Notes under the pieces: model-generated
Database searches by the model: none
Told to the model about the DNA's origin: nothing
The model's input: only the letters and a program-made list of their open reading frames with translations
Program-made: the position numbers and the translations under genes
In this document: piece by piece, positions 1 to 57,247 of the stretch
Numbering within the stretch: position 1 is the first letter of the stretch
Layout: every line of letters starts with the position of its first letter
Assembly: GCF_000275865.1 (NCBI RefSeq)
Contig: NZ_CM001555.1
Coordinates: forward strand, 1,762,967-1,826,966
Reading direction: 5' to 3'
Source: Methanofollis liminatans DSM 4140
GTDB lineage: Archaea; Halobacteriota; Methanomicrobia; Methanomicrobiales; Methanofollaceae
DNA: 64,000 bases

Positions 1-1296
1 CATCGCGTAGTAGACACGGGGCCGCGGTGCGTCTGCCGTTCGCTCCCTGATATAATCCAGCCGTTCCCGGATGTATCCACAGAGATCACGCCCGGCCTCC
101 TCGCGCCCGGTCTGGTGCGCGAAGTCCATGACAAGGTCAAGATACGCATCGATGTTGTTCATCCGGTCGTGCAGTTCCTTCCCGAGCATCCCGGTCCGGA
201 GCACCCTGGCCCAGATCCCGGCGAGGACTGATTGGTCCTGCACACCGAGGCAGTTCAGGATCGCCCAGACCATCTCCAGCCCCCGGGTGACCCGGTACCC
301 GCCCATCATCCCGGGTTCGTAGAAGATCTCAGGACTGATAGGGCCCTGGACAGGGAGGGCATGGCCGCACGAGCAGACCGTCCTGGCCTCTCCGGAGAGG
401 TGGGTGCCCATCGGACCGAAGAACTCCCGTTCGATACAGGATGTTCCGCAGGCCGGGCAGAAGGTCGTCAGATATCTCGTGCCCGGCGAGTTGAAGAGGT
501 AGACCCAGGGCAGGATCGCGCGGAGCCGGTCACAGAGTCCCTCGCTCGCGTAGATTGTCGGTTCCTCCCCAGGCCCCGCGTCGCCAAAGGGGACGAACCG
601 CATCACCTGCAGGGGGATATCGGGTGAGATCGCCGCAATCATCCGCGCCGCACCGAGCACCTCGTCTTCCCGGCCCCGCCGGTAAACAGCAGAGATCTCG
701 ACATGCACCCCACCCTCGTGGAGCAGCCTGATCGTGCGCAGGACCGGCTCAACGCTCCTGGCCCCGCAGGCGCGGTAACTCTCTTCGGTTACCCCCTTGA
801 GACCGACGTTGACAAAATCCACCAGCTCCCGGAGTCGCAGGGCGGACGCTTCGGTCATGTAGCCGTTCGTTGAGCACCCGACTGAGAGCCCCTCCTCCCG
901 TGCTCTCTCCGCGAGTCGGCAGAAGGTCGGGAAGGAAGCGATCGGGTCGTTCAGCGCGAAGGCGATCCCGTTGCAGGCGTGGGAAGCGGCGAGGCCGAGC
1001 AGATCGTCGATGGTGAGGGCCGTGCCTGAGGCTGCAAGCGACTCCGCGTGCCCGACGAGGATCTCCGAGACGCACCCGCCGCACGAGAGGTTGCACCCGA
1101 CCGTGCAGACCTGGAGGAATTTCGCGCCGGGGAAGAAGTGAAGCACCGGCAGCGTCTCGATTGCAACGGGGAAAGCGGCGAGGAAGGCGTCCGGAAAACG
1201 TTCAACGATCCCGTTGCCATCGTTTTTGTACATCCGGCACCTGCCAGTTCCTCCTGGTGGAATATCGCATCCGACCTCACAGATAGTGCAGCGCAT
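1..1296 (-). CDS. AmrS-like radical SAM protein with C-terminal binding-protein-like extension (partial, runs off the window)
   Basis: The frame is open from an ATG at 1296 to the window edge (432 codons seen; the 3' end is missing). Residues 3-20 hold four Cys (C3, C6, C10, C20), as at the N-terminus of AmrS/PflA-like proteins. The radical SAM motif is C68-x3-C72-x2-C75, followed by a CNG-type TIM-barrel pattern. A zinc-ribbon pair (CPAC ... CSCG) near residues 255-290 is the usual end of AmrS. About 120 further residues follow, ending in RERTADAP-RPRVYYAM. That closely resembles RERTADIPEDERVTVFLG in the binding protein of the same operon. It starts 7 bases after the methyltransferase stop, so it is the last visible gene of the transporter operon. 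Radical SAM chemistry is secure; substrate unknown. Confidence 0.85.
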   Translation of the reverse strand, partial: MRCTICEVGCDIPPGGTGRCRMYKNDGNGIVERFPDAFLAAFPVAIETLPVLHFFPGAKFLQVCTVGCNLSCGGCVSEILVGHAESLAASGTALTIDDLLGLAASHACNGIAFALNDPIASFPTFCRLAERAREEGLSVGCSTNGYMTEASALRLRELVDFVNVGLKGVTEESYRACGARSVEPVLRTIRLLHEGGVHVEISAVYRRGREDEVLGAARMIAAISPDIPLQVMRFVPFGDAGPGEEPTIYASEGLCDRLRAILPWVYLFNSPGTRYLTTFCPACGTSCIEREFFGPMGTHLSGEARTVCSCGHALPVQGPISPEIFYEPGMMGGYRVTRGLEMVWAILNCLGVQDQSVLAGIWARVLRTGMLGKELHDRMNNIDAYLDLVMDFAHQTGREEAGRDLCGYIRERLDYIRERTADAPRPRVYYAM

Positions 1297-1303
1297 CTCT
1301 CAA

Positions 1304-1945
1304 TCACTTCCGCATGATGATCCAGAACCCGGCCTCGTCCTCGCGGACCTCGCAGGCAGCGATACCGGCCTTCTCCAGGTCCTGCCTGACGGCGTCCAGG
1401 TTCCTCCGGGAGAGCCGTTCTGCGGCCTTCACCTCCCACTCGGGGTCGATCTCGCGCATCTTCGCCGTGATCTCCGCCTTCAGCGCGGAGGTGCCGAACC
1501 CGCCGCCCACAAACGTCCTCCCACCCGGCCTGAGCACCCGGTAGATCTCAGAGAACGCCCTGACCCGGTCGTCCCAGAAGAAGAGGGAGCCGCGACTCAC
1601 GACCAGGTCGATGGAGCCGTCATCGTAGGGCAGGTCGTGGACGTCGCCAGGGACCGGGTGTACCCGGTCGGTCAGTCCGGCCTCCCGAATATTCTGCTCT
1701 GCGATCGCGAGCATATCGCCCGATGCGTCGAGAGCGTCGATCTCAAGGCTGCTTGCAGCCCCGAGCGCCAGGGCAAGGTGACCGGGCCCGCACCCGATAT
1801 CGACACATCTACCCTCCCTGATCCCGGAGGTCTGGATGGCCTGCCTGGCGATGACCGGGTATATCGGTGCAAATGGTCCTTTCGCGATGGCATCCATCCT
1901 TCCCGCACCCTTGCCAAAAAACTGGTCATGTGGTTGCTCTGTCAT
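1304..1945 (-). CDS. Class I SAM-dependent methyltransferase
   Basis: 213 residues. The SAM-binding motif I (CVDIGCGPGHLAL) lies near residue 47, an acidic residue closes strand 2 (DALDASG), and the DLVVSRGSLFFWDD segment gives motifs II/III of a UbiE/Methyltransf_11-type Rossmann fold. It has no membrane segment and is cytoplasmic. The start ATG overlaps the end of the ABC ATPase gene by 4 bases, so the two are translationally coupled. Its position between a metal-chelate transporter and a radical SAM gene suggests modification of the imported compound or of a cofactor. The substrate cannot be read from the sequence. Confidence 0.85.
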   Translation of the reverse strand: MTEQPHDQFFGKGAGRMDAIAKGPFAPIYPVIARQAIQTSGIREGRCVDIGCGPGHLALALGAASSLEIDALDASGDMLAIAEQNIREAGLTDRVHPVPGDVHDLPYDDGSIDLVVSRGSLFFWDDRVRAFSEIYRVLRPGGRTFVGGGFGTSALKAEITAKMREIDPEWEVKAAERLSRRNLDAVRQDLEKAGIAACEVREDEAGFWIIMRK

Positions 1946-2757
1946 GGTGTTCCTCTTCTAAATGTCGCTGCCACGGGCACGCAGATCCGCCGGTTGATCG
2001 GGTCGCCGAGGTGCACGATCCGCACGTCAGCCCCATAGGCCTGGTGCATGGTATCCTCGCGGATCACCTCTTCCGGGGGCCCCATGGCAAGAATTCTCTG
2101 GTCTTTGAGGATTGCGACCCTGCTCGATGTCAGGAGTGCATGGTCAGGAAAATGGGTCGCAACAACAATGGTCATCCCGTCCTCTGCGAGTCCCCTGATG
2201 ACATCGAGCACCCGTATCTGGTTGCCGAGGTCCAGGTGCGACGTCGGTTCGTCGAGGAGGAGGATCCCCGGACGCTGCGCGATCGCCCGCGCGATCAGGA
2301 CCAGCTGCCACTCGCCGCCGCTGATCCCGGTGCACGGTCGTTCGGCGAGGTGGGAGATCCCGACCCTGTCCAGGGCATCGGCGGCGATGGCTTCGTCATC
2401 TCCCGATGGGGCCGCAAAGACGCTGAGGTGCGACGCTCTGCCCATCAGGACGATGTCCCTGACCAGGAACGGGAACGGTGAGACCTGTGTCTGCGGAACA
2501 AATCCGATCCGCCGGGCGATCTCGTGCGGCTGCATCTCTGAGATATCCCGCCCATCGAGGACGACCCGGCCGTGCGAGGGGGCGATGAGCCCGCCCATGC
2601 ACTTGAGGAGCGTGGACTTCCCGGTCCCGTTCGGGCCGAGGAGAGAGTATACGCCACCATCCTCCACCGTGAACGAGATCTCGGCAAAGACCGCTGAACC
2701 GCCAGGGTAGCTGAATGTGACGCCTTCCAGACCGATGCTGCTCCCCATGCCTACCAC
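1942..2757 (-). CDS. ABC transporter ATP-binding protein, FecE/BtuD type
   Basis: 271 residues. Walker A is GPNGTGKST near residue 38, the ABC signature is SGGEWQLVLIARA, Walker B is ILLLDEPTSHLD, and the H-loop is VVATHF. The length and the SHLDLGNQ sequence after Walker B are typical of importers for ferric siderophores, haem or cobalamin. The gene overlaps the permease by 7 bases and the methyltransferase by 4, so it is the middle gene of one operon. It should hydrolyse ATP on the cytoplasmic face to power the adjacent FecCD permease. Confidence 0.95.
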   Translation of the reverse strand: MVGMGSSIGLEGVTFSYPGGSAVFAEISFTVEDGGVYSLLGPNGTGKSTLLKCMGGLIAPSHGRVVLDGRDISEMQPHEIARRIGFVPQTQVSPFPFLVRDIVLMGRASHLSVFAAPSGDDEAIAADALDRVGISHLAERPCTGISGGEWQLVLIARAIAQRPGILLLDEPTSHLDLGNQIRVLDVIRGLAEDGMTIVVATHFPDHALLTSSRVAILKDQRILAMGPPEEVIREDTMHQAYGADVRIVHLGDPINRRICVPVAATFRRGTP

Positions 2758-3857
2758 CCCGGGTTGTTCCGCCTGAGCAGCACCGCAAAGATCGGCGCCC
2801 CGATGATCGCGGTCAGGATCCCGATCGGGATCTCAGAGGGGGCTGCCGTCCTCGCAACGGTGTCGACGGCGATCAGGAACGCTCCGCCCAGGAGAACCGA
2901 GACGGGCAGAAGGTAGCGGTTGTCCGGGCCGACGAGCATCCGCCCCATGTGCGGGATGACGAGCCCGATCCACCCGATGATCCCGCTCATGCAGACCGCT
3001 GCAGCGGTGATCACCGTCGAGAGGAGGATGATCACCAGCTTTAAATGCTCGGTGTTCACCCCGAGTGCCCGCGCCTCCTCATCGCCCATGGTAAGGACGT
3101 TTATCCGCCATCTGACCACGAGCAGCCCGGCGATCGAGACGGCGATGATCGGACCGAGGACCATCAGGTCAGGCGCCGAGACGTGGTTGAGCGACCCGAG
3201 CAGCCAGAAGACGATCGCCGGCATCTTGTTCATCGGGTCGGCCACATACTTCACCATCGAGGTGAGAGCCGAGAAGAGCGAGGCGATCACGATGCCCGAG
3301 AGGACGAGCATCAGGATCGGCGTTGTGCTCCTGACCCGGCTGAGGCCGTAGGCCGCCCCCACGGCGAGCAGGCCGAAGACGAACGAGAGGACCTGGACAA
3401 GCACGAGGCTGTCCGAGATGAGGATGCCGATCGCCGCCCCGAAACCAGCCCCGGCCGCCACACCCAGGATCTGCGAGGAGACCAGGGGGTTCCTGAACAT
3501 CCCCTGGAACGAGGCCCCGCTGACGGCGAGACCGGCCCCTACGAGAAGGCCTGCGATGATCCGCGGTATGCGGACGTTAACGACGGCTGAGGCCGCTGTG
3601 GGCGTCCAGGTCTCCTCGATCGGGAAGACCGAGCTCAGGACCACCGCAATCACCGTATCAGGCGGGACCATATACCGCCCGGCCATCAGGGCGATGAACG
3701 CGACAATGCCGAGGACGCCGAGCAGGAGCACCTGGACGGTGCCGGGGTGCTGCTCGCCCCAGCTCCTGCTCTGGACCTGTTTCGGCGTGGCCGTCCCGGT
3801 TGCCCGGGCGCCTTCACCGGCATGCACGCCCCGGCCGTCCGCAGGTTTCAGACTCAT
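2751..3857 (-). CDS. FecCD-family ABC transporter permease (iron chelate / cobalamin type)
   Basis: 368 residues with a polar N-terminal stretch of about 40 residues followed by roughly nine or ten hydrophobic helices. Family features are seen: VRIPRIIAGLLVGAGLAVSG near residue 95, the GIIGWIGLVIPHMGR coupling segment, and the C-terminal EIPIGILTAIIGAPIFAVLL. These are hallmarks of type II importer permeases such as BtuC and FhuB. It overlaps the binding-protein gene by a single base and the ATPase by 7. The ligand (siderophore, haem or corrinoid) is not determined; methanogens use this family for both iron and B12. Confidence 0.95.
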   Translation of the reverse strand: MSLKPADGRGVHAGEGARATGTATPKQVQSRSWGEQHPGTVQVLLLGVLGIVAFIALMAGRYMVPPDTVIAVVLSSVFPIEETWTPTAASAVVNVRIPRIIAGLLVGAGLAVSGASFQGMFRNPLVSSQILGVAAGAGFGAAIGILISDSLVLVQVLSFVFGLLAVGAAYGLSRVRSTTPILMLVLSGIVIASLFSALTSMVKYVADPMNKMPAIVFWLLGSLNHVSAPDLMVLGPIIAVSIAGLLVVRWRINVLTMGDEEARALGVNTEHLKLVIILLSTVITAAAVCMSGIIGWIGLVIPHMGRMLVGPDNRYLLPVSVLLGGAFLIAVDTVARTAAPSEIPIGILTAIIGAPIFAVLLRRNNPGW

Positions 3858-4969
3858 CAGGACTGCTTCACCTGGCCGAATGTCACACTTCCGTAGGTGC
3901 CGTCGATGACCTTCTGCGCCTGCTCATCGCTGATGGTGTACCCGAAGATCTCGGCGTAGAAATCCTTCACCCGGTCGGTGAGCGGCACATCGTCGAAGCG
4001 GTCGGGGTAGGCTGCGTAGGCAAGCCAGAGTGGGTAGAGAACGGCGGACTCGGCAGACGGGCGGCTCCAGAGGAAGAGTCCGGTCGGTTCTTTGTAGATT
4101 CTGCCTTCTTTGACGGCACGGAGTTCTTTCCAGCGGGCGTCAGCCGCAAGGTCGGCAGGACGGCCGGTATCGATGATGATGATATACGGGTCGACAGCGA
4201 GGACCTGCTCCATCGAGATCTCGTTGATGCCGGAGTGCATTCCCTCCTGCTGCCCCTGCGTAGTCTCGATGGCGGATACAGCGTTTGTGCAGCCTGCAGC
4301 ATCGGTCCACTCGGTGAAGAACGTGTCGCCTCCGAGCGTCTGGAGGTGGCTCACGCCCTCGCCGAGGAAGACGGTGACCCGCTCGTCTTCGGGGATATCT
4401 GCGGTGCGCTCACGGAGGAATGCAAGGGTGTCATCAAGGTAATTGATATAGGCCTGCGCTCGTTCGGGTTTCTGGAAGACCTCGCCCATGAAGACGATCT
4501 CCCGCCGCATCTCATCGAACCCATCGCTCATCGTTCCGGAGAGGTAGATGACCGGGATGTCGGTATGGGACTCCACGATCTCCCCGTCGACATCGAATGC
4601 GATGACGCAGCCGGGGTTCGTGACCAGGAGTTCTTCGATGTTCACGTTGCCGTTCGTCGTGCGCGGTGCCGGTTTATTGACGATGCCCGGGTCCATCTCC
4701 TGCATCATCTCCATCATCTGCGGCCCTTTCGTGACGGCAGTGACACTGGCGTTCGCACCGAGGAGGTAGGGCACCTGGCTGATGGGACCGCCAAAGACAC
4801 CGAACGTCGCCCCTTCAGAGGGGAGCACGATCTGGTTCCCCTCCATATCGGTGATCGTCCGGGTTCCGGGCGTAGCGCCCTGATCCCCCGATGTTGTCGT
4901 TGTGCAACCGCAACAGAGCAGACCTGCTGCGAGGATAAGCATACAGAAAACGAAACTCACTCTTCTCAT
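3857..4969 (-). CDS. ABC transporter substrate-binding lipoprotein (iron chelate / cobalamin class)
   Basis: 370 residues. A signal sequence ends in a lipobox-like run (GLLCCGC), so the mature protein is probably lipid-anchored outside the membrane. A class III binding protein fold is indicated by an N-lobe (TITDMEGNQIVLP ... VTNPGCVIAFD), the long linking helix (residues about 190-215, ending RERTADIPEDERVTVFLG) and a C-lobe with VDPYIIIIDTG. It is the first gene of the minus-strand operon and captures the ligand for the permease and ATPase that follow. The upstream region has three AGTTAA motifs that may be operator sites. Confidence 0.93.
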   Translation of the reverse strand: MRRVSFVFCMLILAAGLLCCGCTTTTSGDQGATPGTRTITDMEGNQIVLPSEGATFGVFGGPISQVPYLLGANASVTAVTKGPQMMEMMQEMDPGIVNKPAPRTTNGNVNIEELLVTNPGCVIAFDVDGEIVESHTDIPVIYLSGTMSDGFDEMRREIVFMGEVFQKPERAQAYINYLDDTLAFLRERTADIPEDERVTVFLGEGVSHLQTLGGDTFFTEWTDAAGCTNAVSAIETTQGQQEGMHSGINEISMEQVLAVDPYIIIIDTGRPADLAADARWKELRAVKEGRIYKEPTGLFLWSRPSAESAVLYPLWLAYAAYPDRFDDVPLTDRVKDFYAEIFGYTISDEQAQKVIDGTYGSVTFGQVKQS

Positions 4970-4994
4970 AAATTCACCTTCAATCTGGCATTTA

Positions 4995-5028
4995 GCGGGA
5001 AAAACTGGTTTTTATGGACACTCCCGCT
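4995..5028 (-). other. Possible leader hairpin of the transporter operon
   Basis: A 7-base arm (agcggga, starting at 4994) is complementary to tcccgct ending at 5028, with about 21 bases between. It lies between the likely promoter and the binding-protein start codon at 4969, so it would be in the 5' leader. No known riboswitch consensus was recognised. It may be chance. Confidence 0.25.
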
Positions 5029-5036
5029 GAATTTAT

Positions 5037-5103
5037 GAGAGTTAATTCTCGAATAATAAAAAAGTTATCTTTTTCATGAAGTTAATTTTATTTAGTTAAC
5101 TGA
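5037..5103 (-). promoter_or_regulatory. AT-rich promoter region with repeated AGTTAA motifs
   Basis: The core AGTTAA occurs at 5040-5045, 5080-5085 and 5094-5099. Two copies sit in near-palindromes: GAGAGTTAATTCTC (5037-5050, six of seven pairs) and TTAGTTAACTGA (5092-5103, five of six pairs). The region is far more AT-rich than its surroundings and precedes the iron/cobalamin transporter operon. Binding by a metal-dependent repressor (DtxR/MtsR-like) is an inference. Confidence 0.4.
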
Positions 5104-5392
5104 ACCGGAATTCTAGAGGGATCAGGGCGGAACACGCAGAAGATCCGTCCTCTGGTGCTCGATCCGCCCCTCCCGACCGGTCACAAACACCGCTTTCTGT
5201 GCTCACGCTCCTATTCCCGTGGAGAGGTGCAGATCGCGTGAGCCAGTGGTGTCCCTTCCCCCTTATCCCGTCAGGGAGGTCACCTGCCAGCCCTCAGGGG
5301 ACGAAGATCCGGAGAGCGCGCAAAAGAGATCCAGGCGTTGATTCATCGCAGGTGACGGAAAACAGGTTCAAAGCCAGAGAAAGACGAAGGAA

Positions 5393-6005
5393 AAACTGGC
5401 TTTGTAGAATCATCACTTTTCCGGATGCGAGCATGATTCATTCGCCTTTCCCTATCTTCGCGCTGGGGGCTCTGCCCCCGGACCCCCGCGCGCATGATTG
5501 CTCCTGACATGCGGGGAAGGGCCAGGCTGAGCATCTATCGATGAAAAATTATGGATAGGCGTGCTGGCGTGTTTTACCGTTCCCGCCCCCATCGCAGTTC
5601 TATGGGGCGGTAAGCCCCCCCGGCAGGGGCCTGCTCGATCTTCAGGAACCCTCACGTTCTCGGTGCGAAGATGCGATAATTACTCAGGGTGGAGAGGACA
5701 CCGCGCCGGGGGTTGCACCCCCGGACCCCTGCATACGATTGTCCCGAATATGCGGGGACGGGAGAGGCGGAGAATCTGTCGATGAAAACGGATGTACCGG
5801 CGAGCCGGCGTGGTTTTCCCATCCCTGCCCCAATCGCTGTTTTGCGGCGCACACATTTCCCATCTGCTCACGGAAACTGCCAGGGAGTGGCTTCGTCCAG
5901 ACCATCTCGTCGCCTGGTTCCACGATAAAGGGGAAGATCTATGACTAACCTCACCAGGGCAAATTCAAGCGATCTCGATCGTAGTTGGAGGGGATCTTTT
6001 CAACA
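5393..6005 (-). repeat. Long dispersed repeat, copy 1 (inverted relative to the copy at 54.9 kb)
   Basis: The complement of this stretch can be followed from end to end in 54872-55595. Clear blocks are the outer part (5868-5990 against 54889-55015), a block around 5636-5672 against 55311-55350, and the other end (5396-5460 against 55525-55591). Internally there are two tandem units of about 243 bases: GGACCCC recurs at 5480 and 5723. GC-rich hairpin modules recur in alternating orientation (5464-5500, 5586-5630, 5706-5741, 5823-5850). No convincing gene is present. It fills the gap between the transporter operon and tRNA-Phe. Confidence 0.85.
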
Positions 6006-6141
6006 GGGCCCCGAAAAAGTATATTTTCCGGTGGAAGATACTACCGTGTCAGGCAAAACGAGGATCTCAATTGTCAAAAAACTCACAGAAAATGAGAGCA
6101 CATAAACAGTACTTAAAAAACATTGATAAAATTGCTTGGAG

Positions 6142-6215
6142 TGCCCCAGCCCGGATTTGAACCGGGGACAACCAGATCTTCAGTCTGGCGCTCTCCCAGT
6201 CTGAGCTACTAGGGC
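6142..6215 (-). tRNA. tRNA-Phe (GAA)
   Basis: On the complement, the acceptor stem GCCCTAG pairs with CTGGGGC (one G-U), the anticodon stem CCAGA/TCTGG encloses loop CTGAAGA with anticodon GAA, and the T arm carries GGTTCAAATCC. The discriminator base is A and CCA is not encoded. There is no intron. An AT-rich box (about 6240-6248) upstream on the minus strand may be its promoter. Confidence 0.97.
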
Positions 6216-54788: not shown

Positions 54789-54871
54789 TATCCTGCCGTG
54801 GATCCGGCACCGCAGGGCTCTGTTTCAGGCATGTCGCCTGCGTTCAGGATCTCAATTTTCCCTGACAGCGG

Positions 54872-55595
54872 CTGGTATGAAAACCCCTCTACAACAACAA
54901 TCGAGATCGCTTGAAGGTGCCCTGGTGAAGGTATGATAGATCTTCCCTTTATCGTGGAACCGGGCTACGAGATGGTCTGGACGAAGCCACTCGCCCGGCC
55001 GTTTCCGGGAGCAGAGCCTCCGGGGGGAGATTGTACCTCGCCATTCGTTGTATTTTCTCTTCATATCGAGAACGTGAGGGTTCCAGAAGATCACGCAACT
55101 CCCTCCCGGGGGCCTGCTGCCCCCAGACCCCCCCTGCACATGCGATTGGGGCAGGGGCGGGCAACCACGCCGGCACGCCCACCCATCATATTCCATCGAG
55201 AACCGTTCCGTCCTGCCCGTCCCCGCATATCCACAGCAATCGCATGCGGGGGGTCCGGGGGTGCAACCCCCGGGCAGAGGCGGACTTCGCTATTCGTTCG
55301 ATCGTCTCTTCGCATCGAGAACGTGAGGGCTCCTGAAGATCGAGCAGGCCCCTGCCGGGGGGCCTGCTGCCCCCCGATCCCCCCGCACATCTGATTGGGG
55401 CGGGGACAACCAAACCGCTCCAGCACGCCCACTCATCATTTTCCTATCCACAGATACTCCACCCCCGTCCTCGCATATCCACGAGCAATCGCACGCGCTG
55501 GATCCAGGGCAATCGCCCCCGGCGCGAAGATAGAGGAAGACAAATGAATCACGCTTGTATCTGGAAAAGTGATGATATTTACAAAGCCCTGACAG
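54872..55595 (+). repeat. Long dispersed repeat, copy 2 (inverted relative to the copy at 5.4 kb)
   Basis: Matches the complement of 5393-6005 from end to end with gaps. Two tandem units of about 249 bases are recognised by CGAGAACGTGAGGG at 55067 and 55316. GC-rich hairpin modules in alternating orientation lie at 55104-55149, 55237-55274, 55356-55400 and 55486-55521. An open frame from 54933 (MIDLPFIVEPGYEMVWTKPL at its start, with GGTGAAGGT before it) runs into hairpin sequence and is disrupted in copy 1 by an extra C, so it is not taken as a gene. The rest of 54789-55855 shows no gene. Confidence 0.85.
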
Positions 55596-55855
55596 CAGTT
55601 CCCCTTTAGATCCAGGATCGAATTACTTTCGGAGCCTTCGACGATCGTATCGATTCATATCAAGGGTCGAACCCGGGGATGGAAGGGAACGGCGTCCATA
55701 TCACAACATGGAGGAGGGACTCGACAACCGGCACGAATAAGTGTTCCGAATCTAAAAGGCGTCACTACAGGGCGACAGGTATCCATGCAGATTGAAAACC
55801 TGGCAGCAAACAGGGGGAGACCTTTCAATGGCGATCCCGGAGAACGAAGATTGTC

Positions 55856-56368
55856 ATGATAGCTTATCCCATCGCCATGGCGGCCTGGTTCATTCTCCTG
55901 CCAGTCATCTGCATCGGAGGTCTTGCCCTCCTGACCTACTATGCGGCAACAAAGATCCGACCGGCGGCGGGCAGAGTCCTTCCGATTGCAATTGGCCTAT
56001 TCCTCTCTGTTCTGGCGCCGGTTGTCGGCCACTTATCCTTATCGGTCGATCTCGGCGTTATGGCGATGGGTGCCCTGACGCCGTTCATGACCGTCGAGAG
56101 GTATTTCCCCGAACGGCATCGATACACGATTCTCTTCGTCGGCTCCATCTTCGCGGGATCCATACGCTTCATAAACGGGCTTGCAATGGCCTCTGACGGT
56201 GGTTCGCCGATCTTCCACCTGCTCACTTCTATGACCTCATCCGATGCAGGCTTTCTGATCATGAACTCAGTCGCCCTGTACCTGGAGATGGCAATCTGTT
56301 CAGCACTGATATTCGGCGTTGTTCTCGTGGCTGTCGCTGCATGGAGAAAAATGTCAGGGAAATTCTGA
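55856..56368 (+). CDS. Hypothetical integral membrane protein
   Basis: 170 residues with about five hydrophobic helices (near residues 5-30, 40-60, 65-80, 92-108 and 134-163) and short loops, no signal peptide. Codon use is less GC-rich than in neighbouring genes, hinting at a later arrival. I recognise no family; helix 2-3 carries GHLSLSVDLGVMAMGALTPFMTV in parts. Located in the insertion between ksgA and MTQ2, right after the repeat. Start at 55856; a frame open further upstream has no better start. Confidence 0.6.
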   Translation: MIAYPIAMAAWFILLPVICIGGLALLTYYAATKIRPAAGRVLPIAIGLFLSVLAPVVGHLSLSVDLGVMAMGALTPFMTVERYFPERHRYTILFVGSIFAGSIRFINGLAMASDGGSPIFHLLTSMTSSDAGFLIMNSVALYLEMAICSALIFGVVLVAVAAWRKMSGKF

Positions 56369-56431
56369 CCGGCGCGGAAAAGATCGTCCGGCACTTCTAC
56401 GCCCGCACGCCGGGACAGCCGGGAGCGGCCC

Positions 56432-57247
56432 CTAATACCCGCTCGCATAATACCACCCTCCCTCCTCCCTGATATGCACCGGGACATCGAAGAGGCCGCC
56501 GATGATTGTGTCGGTCAGGATCTCCTCCTTCGGGCCGTCGGCGCAGATCCGCCCCTCCTTCACCAAGACCACCCGCGAGATCTCCGGGATGATGTCGTGG
56601 AGATTGTGGGTGACCATGATCACGCCGGTGCCCGAGCGGGCAATCTTCTGGAGTGTCGAGCGGAAGTGGTGAAGGGCGTGGAGGTCCATGCTGTTCGTGG
56701 GCTCGTCCAGGATGAGTGCAGCGGGGTCGTGGACGAGCGCCCGCCCGATCAGGAAGCGCCTGCCCTCGCCGCTGGACATCTCCCTCATGGAACGATCTGC
56801 GAGGTGCTCGATCTCCAGGAACCTGAGGATCTCGTCGGTCTTCTCCTCCATCGTCGCAGTGACCTCGTGCCTGAAGAGCCCGACGCTGGAGAAGAAACCG
56901 GAGAGGACTGCCTCGCGCCCGGTGATCTCCCGGGTGAAGGTGAACTGCAGTTCGTTCGAGACGATGCCGAGCATTGAGCGCAGGGCGCCCACCTCCCAGA
57001 CCTCCTTTCCCATGATCAAAAACCTGCGATCGGCGTGCGCCAGCGGGTAGTGCTCGCGGGTGATCGTCTTGATCAGGGACGACTTCCCCGCACCGTTCGG
57101 CCCGAGGAGGGCGAGGTGCTCGCCGGCACCGACGGTGAGGGAGAGGGAGTCGAGGACTTTTTTGTCGCCCCTCATCACGGTGATATTGGCGAAGTCCAGC
57201 AGCGGGGGAGAGGGAGTCGTTGCATCAGGGGGTACCTGCTCGTTCAT
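56432..57247 (-). CDS. ABC transporter ATP-binding protein (ModF-like, no permease beside it)
   Basis: 271 residues. Walker A GPNGAGKSS near residue 49, signature MSSGEGRRFLIGRALV near 160, Walker B ALILDEPTNSMD near 182, H-loop VTHNLHDI near 217. The Ser-Ser-Gly-Glu signature and the ITGREAVLSGFFSSVGLF insertion before it resemble ModF/YlmA-type soluble ABC proteins. No permease or binding protein is encoded next to it, so its transport partner, if any, is elsewhere. It lies in the 2.5 kb insertion between ksgA and MTQ2. Confidence 0.88.
   Translation of the reverse strand: MNEQVPPDATTPSPPLLDFANITVMRGDKKVLDSLSLTVGAGEHLALLGPNGAGKSSLIKTITREHYPLAHADRRFLIMGKEVWEVGALRSMLGIVSNELQFTFTREITGREAVLSGFFSSVGLFRHEVTATMEEKTDEILRFLEIEHLADRSMREMSSGEGRRFLIGRALVHDPAALILDEPTNSMDLHALHHFRSTLQKIARSGTGVIMVTHNLHDIIPEISRVVLVKEGRICADGPKEEILTDTIIGGLFDVPVHIREEGGWYYASGY

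Follow-up and report, generated by a model that had tools for sequence, protein, structure and literature searches.

Two inverted repeats 49 kb apart in Methanofollis liminatans are probably old copies of a composite MITE

Two similar stretches of DNA lie about 49 kb apart, in opposite orientation, in the chromosome of Methanofollis liminatans DSM 4140, within the 64,000-nucleotide stretch that we analysed (here called the window; NZ_CM001555.1, positions 1,762,967 to 1,826,966). An earlier note, made from the sequence alone, placed them at 5393-6005 and 54872-55595 of the window and suggested that they form a pair able to invert the DNA between them. What kind of repeat is this, and does it form such a pair? 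We consider it very probable that the two stretches are old copies of a composite MITE, which would have spread by means of an IS5-family transposase acting in trans. The modular build of this element and its spread through the genus are mildly interesting; a 49-kb inversion is not supported, and the idea of a chromosome-inversion switch does not stand.

The repeat pair and its family

Window positions 5398-6010 on the forward strand (copy 1) and 54870-55588 on the reverse strand (copy 2) are copies of the same repeat, with an identity of approximately 75%, which is far above chance. When the window was compared with itself by BLAST, 5398-5840 matched 55588-55138 in inverted orientation (74.6%, E=4e-43), and 5863-5993 matched 55015-54884 in the same manner (87%, E=6e-36). 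Local alignment of the two copies gave a score of 308, compared with a mean of 21.8 and a maximum of 31 for dinucleotide shuffles (n=200), and the longest stretches of unbroken identity measure 32, 26 and 24 bases. These results confirm the dispersed, inverted repeats of the earlier note, whose coordinates were only 2-7 bases off, and dispose of the concern that the identity might be no better than for shuffled sequence. With their sizes set from the inverted-repeat ends, copy 1 is 613 bp long and copy 2 719 bp. The gap of 106 bp mostly corresponds to part of one internal unit of ~245 bp that is missing in copy 1, which is also why the shared blocks had at first appeared scattered. Both copies are intergenic, and four of the open reading frames (ORFs) overlapping them matched no family when searched against Pfam; the earlier remark that no gene accounts for the repeat thus holds.

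A search of the whole genome (G000; 2,475,100 bp in one contig) revealed that the pair is not unique. The 64 matches to copy 1 cluster into at least 39 loci, 21 on the forward and 18 on the reverse strand, a lower bound obtained by scoring 40 of 72 candidates. Matches are also present in all 12 Methanofollis genomes searched, several of which have more than 40. Copy 1 has closer relatives in the family than copy 2, one being the copy at 441015 (84% identity over 547 bp), and reaches 87% identity with the single-unit copy L004. Judging by sequence divergence, both window copies look old, since they are 71-79% identical to most of the other copies. Five copies elsewhere in G000 (L005, L006, L009, L010 and L011) are 86-93% identical to one another, four of them being ~585-590 bp and one 788 bp long. 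Altogether, the family accounts for at least 22 kb (~0.9%) of repeated, gene-less sequence in G000, and it offers the genus Methanofollis an insertion marker for strain comparison.

Ends, target duplications and orthologous sites

Many copies, including copies in relatives, carry the terminal inverted repeats (TIRs) GGCTYTGTWGAAW at both ends. Copy 1 starts with the left TIR GGCTTTGTAGAAT (the A end; 5398-5410, forward strand) and finishes with TTTTCAACAGGGCC at its right end, and the A end of copy 2 is a decayed TIR, GGCTTTGTAAATA (55576-55588, reverse strand). Scanning the fetched loci of the genus for left and right ends 60-1500 bp apart, we found 37 end pairs flanked by direct repeats of 8-9 bp with at most one mismatch, a few of which are other ISs or chance cases (e.g. 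L086, L089, L166); random pairing would be expected to produce ~1.4 (1883 pairs x 0.00072). Perfect 8-bp duplications account for 30 of the 37, a count that takes in ISs and related elements too. Copy 2 has a perfect 8-bp duplication, CTGACAGC, on both its left (54862-54869) and its right (55589-55596), though it is too decayed for the end-pair scan. The flanks of copy 1 show no clean 8-bp duplication (GAAAAACT vs CCGAAAAA). Recent copies in G000 at 618166 and 823072 are flanked by the target site duplications GGATAATC and GAAAAAAT, respectively. Moreover, in this genome target duplications surround entire composites of 371, 585, 590, 788 and 1062 bp; therefore, the composite moved as a unit.

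In G000, copy 2 is situated between an rRNA dimethylase gene on the left and an ABC transporter gene on the right. These two genes are 1657 bp apart in G000 and approximately 20 bp apart in the sister genome G011, where genes of this region are 94-96% identical; in G003, the neighbours at this locus are separated by 314 bp instead of ~940 bp, with no match to the MITE. Copy 2 is absent from the orthologous site in both relatives. For neither copy 1 nor copy 2 did we find a clean empty site, in which the target would stand once and uninterrupted; in G011 and G003 the reason is that the spacers have diverged and that the small ORF at 55939-56487 is missing from G011 as well. Lying between the ABC transporter gene and copy 2, this ORF matched nothing in Pfam; part of it has a similar counterpart in the DNA of G003.

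That the repeats are instead kept for a host function, as a regulatory RNA, a terminator or a G-rich structural element in the manner of REP/BIME, with their mobility incidental or ancient, seems unlikely to us: insertion is shown by the target duplications and by the lack of the repeat at orthologous sites, the sequence is poorly conserved among copies and no Rfam family was matched (the Rfam search recovered two tRNAs and no other known structured RNA). GC-rich hairpins in every unit and the intergenic position of both window copies would suit such a role. As to folding, the canonical 231-bp copy found in relatives has a slightly more stable fold than its shuffles (z -2.5), whereas a window copy does no better than shuffles (z -0.4), and we rejected a strong single-strand fold for it.

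Insertion of a mobile element is also preferred over homologous recombination within the inverted pair, flipping the 49-kb segment between the copies, which we regard as less likely still. Two inverted copies that are identical over stretches of 32 and 26 bp have enough in common for rare recombination, yet they are only ~75% identical overall and form just one of 378 inverted pairs within the family in G000, 15 of which are closer (counted from the at least 39 loci). Additionally, in G011 and G003 the flanks of copy 2 adjoin each other and remain collinear, with the same order and strand, and therefore no inversion at copy 2 separates G000 from these relatives. Of the original proposal, dispersed, inverted and gene-less repeats remain, whereas the special pair and its inversion do not.

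Copy 1 adjoins tRNA-Phe (6141-6215, reverse strand). Nothing orthologous to its left flank (1-5350) lies beside tRNA-Phe in relatives, and the flank varies in every relative examined. We considered a rearrangement caused by the repeat and discarded it, since a flank that differs each time is more simply explained by a variable region next to the tRNA; the DNA to the left of tRNA-Phe is likely a variable region or an integration hotspot. In G000, this side (window 1-6215) holds FecCD and periplasmic-binding-protein transporter genes (2751-4969).

Composite anatomy and the IS5-family partner

The repeat family has the attributes of a MITE, its members being short, without a transposase gene, bounded by TIRs, associated with a target duplication, multicopy and dispersed, and related to an autonomous element. 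The element is laid out as an A end (GGCTTTGTAGAAATCATCAC), followed by one or more tandem GC-rich hairpin units of ~245 bp and then by a C module of ~120 bp. Its middle consists of the ~245-bp GC-rich unit in tandem, which extends over 5459-5841 in copy 1 (forward strand; ~1.6 copies, 5459-5599 being repeated at 5702-5841) and over 55038-55497 in copy 2 (reverse strand; period 249, 1.8 copies). The C module, at the right end, aligns to the left end of a G011 IS directly joined to its right end, with scores of 78-94 compared with at most 47 for shuffles. Such an alignment is the signature of an internal deletion, and the module is thus a relic of an IS5-family IS that has lost its interior. 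In copy 1 the relic occupies 5889-6010 (forward strand; score 78, shuffles at most 39), with the right IS end GGCTTCGTCC at 5889 and the left IS end at 6010, and in copy 2 it occupies 54870-54988 (reverse strand; score 81, shuffles at most 36). Apart from a ~13-bp terminal repeat, neither the A end nor the tandem units have anything in common with the IS.

G002, G004 and G011 contain ISs of 954-1008 bp that have the same ends as the MITE and are flanked by perfect 8-bp duplications. Their transposases in G011 and G004 match the NCBIfam IS5 family model NF033579 with 233, 237 and 223 bits (cut-off 140 bits) and also match PF01609, a combination that identifies IS5-family DDE transposases. All intact copies of the IS that we found are in sister genomes, and G000 only has a 52%-identical homologue with diverged ends. 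With 8-bp duplications observed, the ISH1 group of the IS5 family may be the group of this partner. Partners of the IS1595 and IS6 families were considered as well, and no such transposases were found in a search of the genus. DDE_Tnp_1 matches number 48 in G011 vs 2 in G000, despite the 94-96% gene identity in the window, indicating a large recent difference in IS load between the two; the G011 loci include L091, L113, L116 and L119.

The composite MITE would have spread through Methanofollis in trans, with an IS5-family transposase recognising its outermost inverted repeats, inserting the entire block and duplicating 8 bp of the target. Both this mobilisation in trans and the succession of steps that built the composite are inferred. 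The element would represent an archaeal example of a composite MITE carrying the relic of its own parent IS.

Known systems and related modules

MITEs derived from IS5-family elements are known in methanogens, e.g. Methanosarcina (Kamoun et al. 2013, PMC3852290), where those listed measure 140-252 bp, reach 24 copies at most and have 0-3-bp target duplications. The Methanofollis element resembles them in being non-coding and multicopy, with short TIRs, an IS5-family autonomous partner and a methanogen host; it differs in its length (~370-1060 bp), modular and internally tandem build and 8-bp duplications. In layout it is comparable to BrickBuilt of Porphyromonas gingivalis (PMC4596501), an intergenic MITE in which a leader and a tail enclose an internal tandem array, with small inverted repeats at the ends. 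Unlike the 23-nt units of BrickBuilt, the Methanofollis unit is ~245 bp long (period 249) and occurs ~1-2 times or more; further differences are the IS relic that serves as the tail and the archaeal host. Finally, we find it hardly credible that the repeat is identical with rPQS, the recurrent G-quadruplex element reported for Methanomicrobiaceae (PMC8044849), which is likewise intergenic and multicopy with a similar layout of G-run, hairpin and C-run, but differs in sequence: its pattern of four G-runs with a 3' C-rich tract occurs neither in any of the 12 genus genomes nor in the fetched loci, and in Methanoculleus genomes it has different flanks, without these TIRs around it. The MITE family appears to be undescribed, as no earlier description for Methanofollis was found in a search of the open-access literature.

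Elsewhere in the genus, the A end forms part of a ~231-bp element with its own right end and 8-bp duplications (L045, L046, L133, L157 and others), and it is also joined to a third type of end, the D end (e.g. L047, L050). A broader reading, to which we would give a little short of an even chance, is that of a modular, genus-specific MITE family, in which a common left end and an expandable tandem hairpin unit are combined with varying right ends (the IS5 relic, the D end or the 231-bp end), each composite having moved as a block and new elements arising through shuffling of modules. The D end GGCTYTGTWGAATCRGGCATGARYC bounds a 1488-bp element (L111:1398-2885) that contains a short DDE_Tnp_1 ORF and is flanked by the 8-bp duplication GATAATAT; this end occurs at L047, L050, L054 and L057 as well, and forms composites with the A end. 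Elements of only 95-96 bp with GGCTCTGTWGAAA ends and perfect 8-bp duplications (L075:1501-1595, L076:1501-1596 and L084:1424-1519) might be a minimal MITE belonging to the same group of ISs.
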